From contig VGYW01000307.1 in NCBI GenBank assembly GCA_016872875.1, positions 1 to 10,091 on the forward strand: a stretch of DNA of 10,091 nt. Direction: 5' to 3'. This DNA is from Planctomycetota bacterium. GTDB lineage: Bacteria > Planctomycetota > PUPC01 > DSUN01. This document shows positions 927 through 10,091 of the stretch, piece after piece. The translations under genes and the position numbers were made by a program. Under the pieces are notes generated by a model. The model was not told the DNA's origin. It saw only the letters and a program-made list of their open reading frames with translations, and ran no database searches. Position 1 is the stretch's first letter. The number at the start of each line of letters is the position of its first letter.

Positions 927-1910
927 ATGGCCTTGAGCAAGCGGCTCTTCAGCGGCATCCAGCCAAGCGGCGGAATCCATATCGGCAACTATCTCGGCGC
1001 CATACGCAACTGGGTGGCCCTCATCCCGGAGTTCGAGTGCATCTATTGCATCGTGGACTACCACGCGATCACGGTGCCCTACGAGCCTGCGGAGATGCCC
1101 GGCCGCATCCTCGAAGCCGCCGCCGTCAACATCGCCTGCGGCATTGACCCCGACCGCTGCACCATCTTCGTCCAGAGCCACGTGCCCCAGCACACCGAGC
1201 TCGCCTGGGTCCTCAACTCCGTGACCCCCGTGGGCGACCTCTTCCGCATGACCCAGTTCAAGGACAAGTCGGCCCAGTTCGAGGGCAGCGTGAACGCCGG
1301 CCTCCTGACCTATCCCGTGCTCATGGCCGCCGACATCCTCCTCTACAAGGGCGAGGTGGTGCCCGTGGGCGAGGACCAGGTGCAGCACCTCGAGCTCAGC
1401 CGCGAGATAACCCGCCGCTTCAACGCCCGCTACGGCCCGGTCTTCCCCGAGCCGAAGGAGCGCCTCACCGCCGCCGCGCGCGTCATGGGCCTCGACGACC
1501 CCACCAAGAAGATGAGCAAGTCGCTCGGCAACACCGTCGCCCTCCTCGAAGACCCCAAGAGCATCTGGGAGAAGGTCCGCACCGCCGTCACCGACCCGGC
1601 CCGCGTGCGGCGCACCGACCCCGGCGAGCCGACGAAGTGCAACATCTTCACCCTCCACGGCTACTTCTCGCCGCCGGCCGACATCGAGCGCGTGGCCGCC
1701 GGCTGCCGCTCCGCCAGCCTCGGATGCATCGAGTGCAAGAAGGTCCTCTTCGACAACATGACGAAGGTGCTCGACCCCATCCGCGAGCGCGCCCAGGCGC
1801 TCCTCGCCCAGCCCGAGCAAGTCTGGGCCATCCTCCGCCGCGGCGCCGAGCGCTGCCTCCCCGTTGCCCAGGCCACCATGGCCGAGGTGAGAAAGGCGAT
1901 GGGGCTGTGA
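927..1910 (+). CDS. trpS: Tryptophanyl-tRNA synthetase with Fe-S-type cysteine motif
   Basis: This cytoplasmic class I synthetase charges tRNA-Trp with tryptophan using ATP. The 327-residue product has normal family length. Visible motifs are GIQPSGGIHIGNYLGA (HIGN at 18-21), the tryptophan-pocket segment MAADILLY (133-140), GEDQVQHLELSR (148-159) and KMSKS (195-199). Cysteines 238, 260, 267 and 270 form C-x21-C-x6-C-x2-C, close to the C-x22-C-x6-C-x2-C that binds a [4Fe-4S] cluster in Thermotoga maritima TrpRS. I chose ATG 927 because homology begins there; the frame stays open back to about 450 only through repeats and the promoter. GAGGAG (921-926) touches this ATG, so TTG 933, six bases beyond it, is a real alternative. 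The stop overlaps the next start (TGATG), suggesting translational coupling. Confidence 0.95.
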   Translation: MALSKRLFSGIQPSGGIHIGNYLGAIRNWVALIPEFECIYCIVDYHAITVPYEPAEMPGRILEAAAVNIACGIDPDRCTIFVQSHVPQHTELAWVLNSVTPVGDLFRMTQFKDKSAQFEGSVNAGLLTYPVLMAADILLYKGEVVPVGEDQVQHLELSREITRRFNARYGPVFPEPKERLTAAARVMGLDDPTKKMSKSLGNTVALLEDPKSIWEKVRTAVTDPARVRRTDPGEPTKCNIFTLHGYFSPPADIERVAAGCRSASLGCIECKKVLFDNMTKVLDPIRERAQALLAQPEQVWAILRRGAERCLPVAQATMAEVRKAMGL

Positions 1911-3316
1911 TGCGCGACCTCACGCCAAGCCTGTTCCTGGCTATCTCAACGTGGGGAACGGCAATGAACGTGGAAGCCGGTTCGTACGCCCCTGAAGTCG
2001 GGAAGAGGCATCCCGACTTCACGCTGCCGAGGGCCGATGACCGCAGGCCCGTATCGCTTTCAGACTTCAGGGGGAGGAAAGTGCTGCTGCTCCACTTCGC
2101 CTCGTGGTGAGTGGGCTGCCGCCGACACGTGCCGGTCTGGCACGCGGCCACGCGCGAGTGGGTGAAGTCGGGGCGGCTCGCCCTCCTGGGCGTCGTGCAG
2201 GAGCAGCACGCCGAGCGCGCGCGGCTCTTCGCCCAGTGGCAGGGCCTCGACTGGCCGATCCTCCACGACCCCATCAACATCCTGCGCCTTCAGGGCGTGC
2301 CCATCCTCGTGGCAGTTGACGAGCACGGGGTCGTCCGCGCCGTGCGGCCCGACCTTAAGACATTCGACGCCGACTTCCTCGACAGGACCTTCTCCGACGG
2401 AGGCGGCGAGGCGGTGGCTCTCACTCCGAGGCCGGGAGACATCCCGGCGCTCCGCGAACGGACCAGGGCAAACCCATCCACCGGCTGGCGGGCGCTCGGC
2501 GATGCCCTTGCCCTCTGGGCCGGCCCGGAGGGCCTCGATGAAGCCATCGCCTGCTACCAGCGGGCCGTGGACAGCGCCCCCGCCGATGGCGATGCCCTCT
2601 TCCGCCTCGGCGCCTGCCATCGCCTTCGCTCCGAGACGGCCGGCCGAAAGCACGGGGACTTCCAGGCCGCCGTGGACGGCTGGAGCCGAGCCCTGGCGAC
2701 CAACCCCAACCAATACATCTGGCGTCGGCGCATCCAGCAATACGGCCCGCGCCTCGACAAGCCCTACGCCTTCTACGACTGGGTGAGCGAGGCGGCCAAG
2801 GCCGTTGCCGCGCGAGGCGAGACGCCCATCCCCCTCAGCGAGCCACCCTATGGCTCCGAGATCGCCCATCCCCTCAAGGAGTTGCCCCAGCCCCAGGCCC
2901 CGACGCCGCCCGACCCCGAGGGGAAGGTGAACCGAGACGCGAAGCGGCTCATCGAGGCCGACGTGGCAGTGGTCCCGCCCACCGTGACGCCAGGGCAAGC
3001 CGTCCGCGTTCACATCGTTCTCCGCCCATCGCGCCGTGCGCAGGCGCACTGGAACAATGAAGGCGAGCCGCTGCGTCTCTTGGTGGACGTTCCTGCCGGC
3101 TGGCGGGCGTCCGAGCGCCTGCTGGCCGCGCCCCAGCCCCAGCAGGCCGAGACCGGCGAAGCGCGCCGCCTCGACTTCGAGGTCCAGGCCCCGCCCGACG
3201 CCGCCGCGGCCCCGCGCCTCCGGGTCTATGCCCTCTACAACGTCTGCGAGACCCAAGGCGGCCAGTGCCTCTTCCTGCGGCAGGACCTCCCGGTCGAGAT
3301 TCCCCTCAGGAAGTAG
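1910..3316 (+). CDS. Probable selenoprotein: UxxC redoxin with TPR-like and DsbD-N-like domains
   Basis: This is a predicted thiol/selenol oxidoreductase of the AhpC/TSA-TlpA type, 468 residues if the in-frame TGA at 2108-2110 is read as selenocysteine 67. Residues 33-66 are a typical redoxin N-terminus (HPDFTLP, VSLSDFRGRKVLLLHFASW). The frame then continues U-V-G-C-R (Sec67, Cys70), then VPVWHAATREW, and GVPILVAVDEHG with the likely cis-proline 131. TPR-like helices follow (about 155-240, including DEAIACYQRAV). A beta-rich C-terminal domain ends YALYNVCETQGGQC (Cys446, Cys453), resembling DsbD N-terminal domains. Homology runs unbroken across the TGA, and a SECIS-like hairpin follows it. 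The start overlaps the trpS stop; ATG 1964 is an alternative, giving Sec49. The N-terminus is only weakly hydrophobic, so export is uncertain. A point-mutated pseudogene is the main alternative, but both halves look intact. Confidence 0.8.
2111..2151 (+). promoter_or_regulatory. Bacterial SECIS-like element directing UGA recoding
   Basis: Directly after the TGA, GTGCC (2129-2133) and GGCAC (2139-2143) form a perfect 5-bp stem closed by the loop GGTCT. This is nearly the apex of the E. coli fdhF SECIS, whose loop GGTC includes the G-U contacted by SelB. GCCGC (2118-2122) pairs with GCGGC (2144-2148), extending the stem past a 6-nt bulge, and GTG (2111-2113) can pair with CAC (2149-2151). The first loop G lies 24 nt after the TGA, within the spacing usual for bacterial SECIS elements. 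Confidence 0.75.
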
Positions 3317-3398: not shown

Positions 3399-4727
3399 AT
3401 GCGCAACAGCCCTCTGCCCTCGCAGCTTGTCGTTGGCCTCATCGCGGTCTGCTCGTTTGCCTTCGCGGAGAACTGGCCCCAGTGGCGCGGGCCGCTGTTC
3501 AACGGCTCGACGACCGAGAGCGGGCTGCCCGCGAGCTGGGACTTGGCGGAGAAGGCCAACGTGGCGTGGGCCGCGCCCATGCCCGGCCAGGCCGCGGCCA
3601 CGCCAGCCGTGTGGGCCGAGCGCGTCTTCGTAAGCTCCGTGGACAAGGAGACGAAGGACCTGCTCGCGCTCTGCCTCGACGCCGCGTCGGGCAAGACGCT
3701 CTGGCAGAAGGCGGTGGGCAAGGACCGCAAGGCGCCCGTCGGCACAAACAACATGGCCTGCCCATCCCCCGTCACCGATGGCAAGAGCGTCTGGTTCTTC
3801 TACGGCACGGGCGCTCTCGTGGCCTTCGACTTCGACGGCAAGCAGCTCTGGGCGCGCGAGCTCGAGAAGGACCACGGCGAGTTCGTGGTCAAGTACGGCT
3901 ACAGCTCCAGCCCGCTCCTCTACAGGGGCAAGCTCTACGTCCTCGTGATGCAGAACGCCAGCCCGCAGAAGTACGGGCGGACGCACGACAAGCGGCCCGG
4001 GCCGCTCGAGTCGTTCCTCCTGGCCTTGGATCCCGCCAGCGGCAAGGAGTTGTGGAAGCACGTTCGCAAGACCACGGCCGAGGACGAATCGGTCGAGACC
4101 TACCTCTCTCCCATCCCCTACGAGGGTAGCGGGCGCTCCGAGCTCATCATCCCCGGCGGCGAGTGCGTGACGGGCCACGACGCCGCGACGGGCGGCGAGC
4201 TCTGGCGCTGGTGGTATCAGCCCGCCGACAGGCAGGTGTGGCAGCGCACCGTCAACTCCGCCACGCCGGGCGAGGGCCTCGTCTACGCCGTGAGGCCGAA
4301 GCACCGCTCCGTCTACGCCATCAAGGGCGGGGGCAAAGGCGAGCTTGGTGAAGGCGACCTCGCCTGGCGGCTCGACCAGAACGTGCCCGACGTCGTCACG
4401 CCGCTCTACTACCAGGGCCGCCTCTACGTGGCCAACGACGGCACCCGGGTCATGGCCTGCCTCGACGCGAAGTCGGGCAAGAAGCTCTGGGAGGGGAGCC
4501 TCGAGATGAAGAGCGTCCTCCGCGCCTCGCCCACCGCCGCCGACGGCAAGGTCTACGTCATCAGCCAGAACGGCGAGGTCGCGGTCCTCGCCGCGGGCGA
4601 CCAGTTCAAAGTCCTCTCCCGCATCCAGATGGGCGAGGGGCCATGCACGGCCTCCATCGCCATTGCCGGCGGCAAGCTCTTCATTCGAACCGCCAAGAGC
4701 CTGTACTGCATTGGGGCGGGCAAATGA
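3399..4727 (+). CDS. Secreted PQQ-like (BamB-type) beta-propeller repeat protein
   Basis: The 442-residue product begins with a signal peptide (LVVGLIAVCSFAFA, likely cut after Ala23), so it should act outside the cytoplasmic membrane. The mature protein starts ENWPQWRGP, the hallmark opening of a large planctomycete and verrucomicrobial family of PQQ-like propellers. Blade motifs of the type LDAxSGKxLW recur: LALCLDAASGKTLW, VAFDFDGKQLW, LALDPASGKELW, GHDAATGGELWRW, ACLDAKSGKKLW, and a final VYVISQNGEVAVLAA. This suggests seven or eight blades. No catalytic or PQQ-binding residues are evident, so it is probably a structural or ligand-binding propeller rather than a dehydrogenase. AGGAG (3388-3392) six bases before the ATG supports the start. 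Its position before a sugar isomerase is common in these bacteria, but a shared role is not shown. Confidence 0.85.
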   Translation: MRNSPLPSQLVVGLIAVCSFAFAENWPQWRGPLFNGSTTESGLPASWDLAEKANVAWAAPMPGQAAATPAVWAERVFVSSVDKETKDLLALCLDAASGKTLWQKAVGKDRKAPVGTNNMACPSPVTDGKSVWFFYGTGALVAFDFDGKQLWARELEKDHGEFVVKYGYSSSPLLYRGKLYVLVMQNASPQKYGRTHDKRPGPLESFLLALDPASGKELWKHVRKTTAEDESVETYLSPIPYEGSGRSELIIPGGECVTGHDAATGGELWRWWYQPADRQVWQRTVNSATPGEGLVYAVRPKHRSVYAIKGGGKGELGEGDLAWRLDQNVPDVVTPLYYQGRLYVANDGTRVMACLDAKSGKKLWEGSLEMKSVLRASPTAADGKVYVISQNGEVAVLAAGDQFKVLSRIQMGEGPCTASIAIAGGKLFIRTAKSLYCIGAGK

Positions 4728-5600: not shown

Positions 5601-5696
5601 TCGTCCTCGTCGTCGTCCTCGTCGTCGTCGTCGAGAGCCCTGTGTTTCAGTCCCCTGGAAGTTCGACGACGAGGACGACGACGACAACGACGACGA
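5601..5696. repeat. Long intergenic hairpin of TCG/CGA triplet repeats
   Basis: Bases 5601-5634 (a TCGTCCTCGTCG-type tract) are complementary to 5663-5696 at 30 of 34 positions, with a 28-nt loop (5635-5662). This makes a very stable hairpin filling the spacer between the isomerase stop (5590) and the uvrC start (5723). Read through, one arm would encode poly-serine and the complementary strand an Asp/Glu run. That is low-complexity repeat rather than gene, which is why the uvrC frame was not extended into it. Confidence 0.8.
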
Positions 5697-8814: not shown

Positions 8815-8911
8815 GGATGGGTGGATGGATGGATGATTGGATGATTGCCGAAGAGGGAGCCGCGACGCTCCCCTCTTGCACTCATCCATTCATCCAATCA
8901 TCCACCCATCC
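8815..8911. repeat. 97-nt hairpin of GGATG-type repeats between purC and the MEMO gene
   Basis: Bases 8815-8848 pair with 8878-8911 at 30 of 34 positions. The stem continues through AAGAGGGAGC (8851-8860) with GCTCCCCTCTT (8867-8877), leaving only CGCGAC as the loop. The hairpin starts 5 nt after the purC stop in the direction of transcription and ends 22 nt before the MEMO TTG start. It could end or attenuate purC transcription or protect its 3' end, although no T-run follows. Similar CATCC repeats appear in the trpS leader (881-892). Confidence 0.8.
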
Positions 8912-9800: not shown

Positions 9801-9837
9801 GGGGGCCGGGCTCCTCACTGGGTATAGGGGGGCAGTC

Positions 9838-9917
9838 GTTCAAAGACGTTGAAAATCGTTGAAGATCGTTGAAAGACGTTGAAAATCGTTGAAGATCGTT
9901 GAAAGACGTTGAAAATC
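9838..9917. repeat. Tandem repeat, eight 10-nt units with a 30-nt super-period
   Basis: Eight contiguous decamers alternate in a fixed order: GTTGAAAGAC, GTTGAAAATC, GTTGAAGATC, repeated (the first reads GTTCAAAGAC). The higher-order 30-nt unit is copied 2.7 times almost without error. It lies about 20-100 nt upstream of purC and merges directly into the palindrome at 9919-9940. A minus-strand reading frame through it (repeating NDFQRLSTIF) has no gene-like start and no composition of its own, so I treat it as repeat DNA, possibly in the purC leader. Confidence 0.85.
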
Positions 9918-9918
9918 G

Positions 9919-9940
9919 TTGGGAACGTCCCAAGTTCTTG
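9919..9940. repeat. REP-associated palindrome, third copy (partly replaced)
   Basis: TTGGGA (9919-9924), ACG, TCCCAA (9928-9933) is a perfect short palindrome, continuing GTTCTTG on one side only. Compared with 142-170 and 541-570, the outer arm is missing and the decamer tandem repeat abuts in its place. Confidence 0.6.
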
Positions 9941-9993
9941 AGCCTCCCCGGGCGACGCTCTCCGCGCCGCGGGAACGCAAAGGCAAACTCGCC

Positions 9994-10031
9994 TCTGGGG
10001 GACCAGTCCCCCAGACCCCCTGGGATTTATC
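9994..10031 (-). repeat. REP-like palindromic repeat, copy D (inverted)
   Basis: TCTGGGGGAC (9994-10003) and GTCCCCCAGA (10006-10015) form a perfect 10-bp stem, followed by CCCCCTGGGATTTATCGC. The whole is the reverse complement of copy C (478-517) over about 40 bases. It abuts the right terminal direct repeat. Confidence 0.8.
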
Positions 10032-10091
10032 GCATTCGGCCACCGGCACGTCTCTTGGAGGCCAGCGCGGCCATTTTCCTGTTGGGGTGCC
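10030..10091. repeat. Right copy of the 62-bp terminal direct repeat
   Basis: Identical to 1-62 except T10055. The copy runs off the end of the window in the middle of its closing stem (GGTGCC), so its true extent is unknown. Confidence 0.85.

Follow-up and report, generated by a model that had tools for sequence, protein, structure and literature searches.

A planctomycete gene divided by an apparent stop codon very probably encodes one selenium-containing redox enzyme

Selenium-containing proteins of the thioredoxin (Trx) fold have been described from several families. A 2026 catalogue of 119 selenoprotein families and subfamilies includes several Trx-fold families with a UxxC site, where U is selenocysteine (Sec); in the portion of the catalogue available, none of these is named with a tetratricopeptide repeat (TPR) or CX6C domain (PMC13188914). 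The same portion lists a "Redoxin family protein" with a PF08534 domain and a UxxC site (HEU0032618.1), as well as a "UGC-containing TlpA" (PMC13188914). By our reading, the latter is probably NCBIfam NF041054 (ResA-like WAxxUGC motif-containing protein, WAxxUGC_long). The gene described here lies in a 10,091-nucleotide stretch of a Planctomycetota genome (contig VGYW01000307.1, assembly GCA_016872875.1), hereafter the window. Annotation splits this gene at an apparent stop, yet it very probably encodes one selenium-containing redox enzyme. Conservation, covariation and the machinery found in relatives suggest that its in-frame UGA is almost certainly decoded as selenocysteine 67 (Sec67; Table 1).

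The gene starts with an ATG that shares one base with the trpS stop codon. Its frame reads HFASW, then TGA as residue 67 of 468, then VGCRRHVPVW (FASW-U-VGCR). Two Pfam models, AhpC-TSA (46.4 bits, cut-off 26, residues 30-121) and Redoxin (PF08534; 39.8 bits, cut-off 26.6, residues 30-142), align across the TGA, which occupies the first position of the redoxin CxxC site. The first-pass annotation of the window had proposed both the in-frame TGA within a redoxin frame and its replacement of the first Cys of CxxC, and both are borne out. It had also held that the genetic code is not reassigned, and TGA indeed terminates the trpS, PQQ propeller, MEMO and purC genes of the window; as the ordinary stop of four neighbouring genes, it thus retains its usual meaning. 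The further claim that a gene caller would start after the TGA and lose the active site holds for the database copy, a 395-residue protein beginning VPVWHAAT, but the start used is GTG 2129 and not the predicted GTG 2111.

The window protein scores over no NCBIfam cut-off. Its nearest model is NF041054, for which it reaches 53.7 bits where the cut-off is 300; that model likewise combines a seleno-redoxin with TPR-like helices and matches all 15 aligned members of the family. In contrast to the U-G-C of NF041054, all 15 aligned rows read U-x-G-C. Sister seleno-redoxins with a WASW-U-GC motif, U being TGA, occur in two further genomes (L098 and L099, in G074 and G017). L098 is also under the NF041054 cut-off of 300 (165.5 bits), and with 406 residues it extends no further than the TPR part and lacks the beta-sandwich found at the C-terminus of the window family. 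The window protein resembles the TlpA/ResA/DsbE thiol-disulfide oxidoreductases in fold and active-site position but differs from them in having TGA for the first Cys and in carrying two extra domains. With the catalogued "Redoxin family protein" it has in common the PF08534 domain and UxxC, a comparison of descriptions only, within the available portion of that source (PMC13188914). Among the matches listed in the literature searches, none describes this seleno-redoxin family or its three-part architecture. The family is a putatively new one among selenoproteins, with familiar chemistry and decoding; it may coincide with the catalogued "Redoxin family protein".

Conservation of the TGA was followed through related genomes. 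A scan of GTDB contigs returned 27 loci, of which 16 (L001-L016) match past the TPR part; position 67 is covered in 15 of these (L016 is cut off) and is TGA in all 15. A profile search of 392 genomes from the phylum of G001 (Pirellulaceae) gave matches at E<=1e-20 in 44 of them, and the 30 loci fetched from this search have TGA without exception (30/30), five being the same genes as in the contig scan. Further genomes added 12 of 12. In total, TGA is present in 52/52 other family genes in which the site was read, some of them close kin (e.g., L089 and L090). Carriers number 42 of the 392 sampled genomes of one phylum, G074 and G017 being dropped as holders of the sister type; also left out were L100 (Asp) and L101 (Ser), which are second genes in genomes already counted, and L016. 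Compared with the window protein, 14 relatives share 36-62% identity across residues 28-66 and 45-64% across residues 68-150; protein-level conservation thus seems to hold on either side of the TGA. Those of L001-L016 with a named group all belong to Planctomycetota or Verrucomicrobiota. In G061 a second TGA within the match is the normal stop. L015 (9959-11441) has a KH/S1-like stretch in place of its C-terminus; by reading of the translation this stretch resembles polynucleotide phosphorylase, and the locus is perhaps an assembly chimera.

A hairpin of the selenocysteine insertion sequence (SECIS) type lies downstream of the TGA. Rules published for bacterial SECIS elements (bSECIS) comprise, in the part of the source available, a loop of 3-9 nt, a stem of 4-16 bp, G within the first two positions of the loop, a distance of 16-37 nt from the UGA and a minimum free energy (MFE) of -7.5 or lower (PMC13188914). 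The window hairpin falls within all these ranges, with -9.2 kcal/mol for the 17-nt hairpin. Across 53 sequences the loop is GGUCU in 20, CGGGU in 17, CGUGU in 13 and of other types in three; an MFE of -7.5 is reached by 31/53 as a 17-nt hairpin and by 47/53 in 25-nt folds. The stem pairs in 96/96 cells of 16 sequences and in 311/318 cells of all 53, and in 18 cells both partners have changed in compensatory fashion. None of 2000 shuffles, which ignore relatedness, reaches 311 paired or 18 double-changed cells, and slid versions attain at most 167 paired. Among 37 conserved fourfold codons, third-base variation is lowest at V74, P75 and G69, each of them within the hairpin or next to it, a clustering with a chance of about 4 in 7770 by our own arithmetic, given four such codons in the region. 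The stem is present in the best fold of the 60-nt window stretch and of stretches starting at nt 16 or 18.

Table 1. Features of the seleno-redoxin locus, in window coordinates.
Feature	Position	Strand	Details
trpS	927..1910	+	domain match
Seleno-redoxin gene (predicted)	1910..3316	+	468 codons with Sec67; ATG 1910, TAG 3314-3316
N-terminal stretch, possible export signal	1910..1981	+	hydropathy; weakly hydrophobic in window, more so in 14 relatives
TlpA/ResA-like redoxin domain, about residues 26-158	1985..2383	+	redoxin/Trx fold with active-site motif
In-frame TGA, proposed selenocysteine 67 of UxxC site	2108..2110	+	TGA in 52/52 other family genes read
SECIS-type hairpin	2128..2144	+	stem CGUGCC/GGCACG, loop GGUCU; 6 bp, 5-nt loop, 23 nt from TGA to loop
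TPR-like helical region, about residues 174-301	2429..2812	+	
C-terminal beta-sandwich domain, residues 334-468	2909..3313	+	contains Cys446 and Cys453 (CX6C)
PQQ (BamB-like) beta-propeller gene	3399..4727	+	domain match

The proposed mechanism begins with SelB and Sec-tRNA(UCA), which, directed by the hairpin, would read the UGA as Sec67; the product is probably exported. The protein contains a redoxin/Trx fold with its active-site motif, the first Cys being replaced by TGA. From fold and motif, it is predicted to act as a TlpA/ResA-like thiol-disulfide oxidoreductase in which Sec67 would attack a disulfide and Cys70 would resolve the intermediate. In the weakest step, Cys446 and Cys453 of the beta-sandwich (predicted local distance difference test score, pLDDT, 92.7) may serve as the internal electron partner of the UxxC site, a role suggested because the pair is jointly absent from the Ser and Asp forms discussed below. 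A possible parallel is the alpha domain of DsbD, a beta-sandwich with two Cys on a hairpin; DsbD is absent among the matches listed in fold and sequence searches. Sec decoding coupled to this predicted oxidoreductase function is likely as a joint claim, while a selenoprotein working instead as a peroxiredoxin-like peroxidase is an unlikely alternative, albeit one of some substance.

Selenocysteine machinery is widespread among carriers of the gene. In the 16 genomes of L001-L016, SelA is over cut-off in 14, SelB in 15 (G003 has pieces below cut-off) and SelD is found in 15, being itself encoded with a TGA in 13 genomes. An ARAGORN-confirmed tRNA-Sec with anticodon TCA is present in 13/16. The tRNA-Sec search at E<=0.001 had matched all 14 control genomes as well, and those Rfam matches of 46-52 bits that were checked with ARAGORN proved to be tRNA-Ser; only ARAGORN-confirmed genes were therefore counted in the 16 genomes. 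Across the 392 genomes, SelA was scored at E<=1e-40 in 246, of which 239 exceed the curated cut-off. It occurs in 38/42 family carriers versus 208/350 others (Fisher p = 3.3e-5, kinship ignored and carriers matched by hand). SelB is over cut-off in all four carriers that lack SelA; SelD occurs in one of them and tRNA-Sec matches near 69 bits in two, and incomplete drafts would explain the missing SelA. In G316 (L102), one strand carries in turn an AIRS-type gene whose domain makes it selD-like, then selB and selA, then a BNR propeller gene and finally the selenoprotein gene. The initial suggestion of a likely selenoprotein therefore gains support from the conserved TGA, the covarying hairpin, the low wobble variation, the Sec machinery of relatives and the proximity to selA and selB.

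These data also bear on whether the TGA might be read as Trp or Cys by readthrough or a suppressor, without selenium. Sec in the product is deduced rather than directly proven, and no tRNA-Sec was found by ARAGORN confirmation in 3/16 relatives' genomes. Nonetheless, TGA is an ordinary stop elsewhere in the window and sits here at the redox-active residue, and SECIS-type covariation, the SelA/SelB association and the one selB-selA neighbourhood make such decoding very improbable. Least credible of all is a pseudogene or a sequencing or assembly error, in which the TGA would be a real stop and the downstream frame a leftover or GTG-started gene: most database copies are indeed separate proteins from after the TGA, but decay would scatter stops, and the same TGA recurs in the 52 other genes across many assemblies with both flanks conserved.

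Several observations weigh against Sec decoding and the oxidoreductase function. One or two of the six stem pairs are missing in six of the 53 sequences. Folding of single sequences gives an equivocal picture: over 53 nt counted from the TGA, the window's best fold is a different one (-22.9 versus -20.3 kcal/mol with the stem forced), and so it is for folds begun at nt 9 or 13. Folding energies of 15 single stretches are mostly near those of shuffles (window z 0.26). The SelA count is set by its E-value threshold and ignores kinship, many of the genomes are in many contigs, and the Sec machinery of the window organism is deduced from genomes of relatives. The 12-residue N-terminal hydropathy of the window protein, 1.41, is the lowest of 15 (1.86-2.82 in 14 relatives, with self-chosen start codons). 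Four TGA genes with a C-terminal region (L086, L087, L091 and L095) are without the CX6C pair, and the analysis revealed no electron donor, substrate or partner.

Database copies of the family are mostly separate proteins of about 385-430 residues beginning after the TGA and labelled "TPR" or hypothetical protein, with the active site missing. The protein entries from Tautonia rosea, Tautonia plasticadhaerens and Tundrisphaera lichenicola are truncated in the same way. From the best 120 of 2324 and the best 120 of 150 matches, 190 proteins were kept, P0001 and P0002 being left out. No residue at position 67 is present in 184 of them, mostly since the start falls after the TGA, and one (P0041) has an unrelated N-terminus. 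The five that span the site have Ser (P0122-P0125) or Asp (P0126, 342 residues). Cys homologues at position 67 had been expected at the outset; none appeared in the 52 relatives' genes or among the 190 proteins, and because these come from the best-ranking matches given above, a rarer Cys form may exist. Two genomes carry second genes altered at the Sec site: L100 (G036) has Asp and, by reading of the sequence, sister-type architecture, and L101 (G001), a weak match, has Ser. Both are candidate redox-dead paralogues.

Both Cys of the second pair, CX6C, are kept in 45/53 TGA genes; L092, L094 and L097 are cut short, and L015 runs into another protein. All six Ser or Asp proteins (P0122-P0126 and L101) are without the C-terminal pair, P0126 lacking such a domain altogether. 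The link between Sec site and CX6C pair is suggestive but not strict, given the four Sec genes with a C-terminal region and no pair.

The surroundings of the gene show other features. In the relative L001, a PQQ propeller gene likewise lies after the seleno-redoxin gene. The window ends (1-62 and 10030-10091) form a 62-nt direct repeat of 98% identity, perhaps a dispersed repeat, perhaps the mark of a contig that broke at one. Positions 471-521 and 9989-10039 form a 51-nt inverted repeat (94% complementary) within GC-rich intergenic repeats, and an array of about nine 10-nt units lies upstream of purC (9836-9925). Hairpins at 5601-5690 and 8823-8911, between or near gene ends, have arms of 27 and 25 nt that are 93% and 92% complementary; all Rfam miRNA matches there are under cut-off.

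In a marine survey, Cys homologues far outnumber Sec forms in most selenoprotein families, according to the part of the survey available (PMC2398784). The present family may instead be committed to Sec, occurring either in a Sec version that usually carries two redox centres, UxxC and CX6C, or in a Ser/Asp version without the second pair, and with no Cys intermediate; this view is tentative, its chances falling somewhat short of even. If true, the family would be a natural test of the need for selenium, since most families of that survey are richer in Cys homologues (PMC2398784, same part). With the TGA read as Sec, the list of selenoprotein families grows by one and selenium use in these bacteria acquires a marker, and the apparent lack of Cys forms makes the question of selenium versus sulfur testable within one protein.
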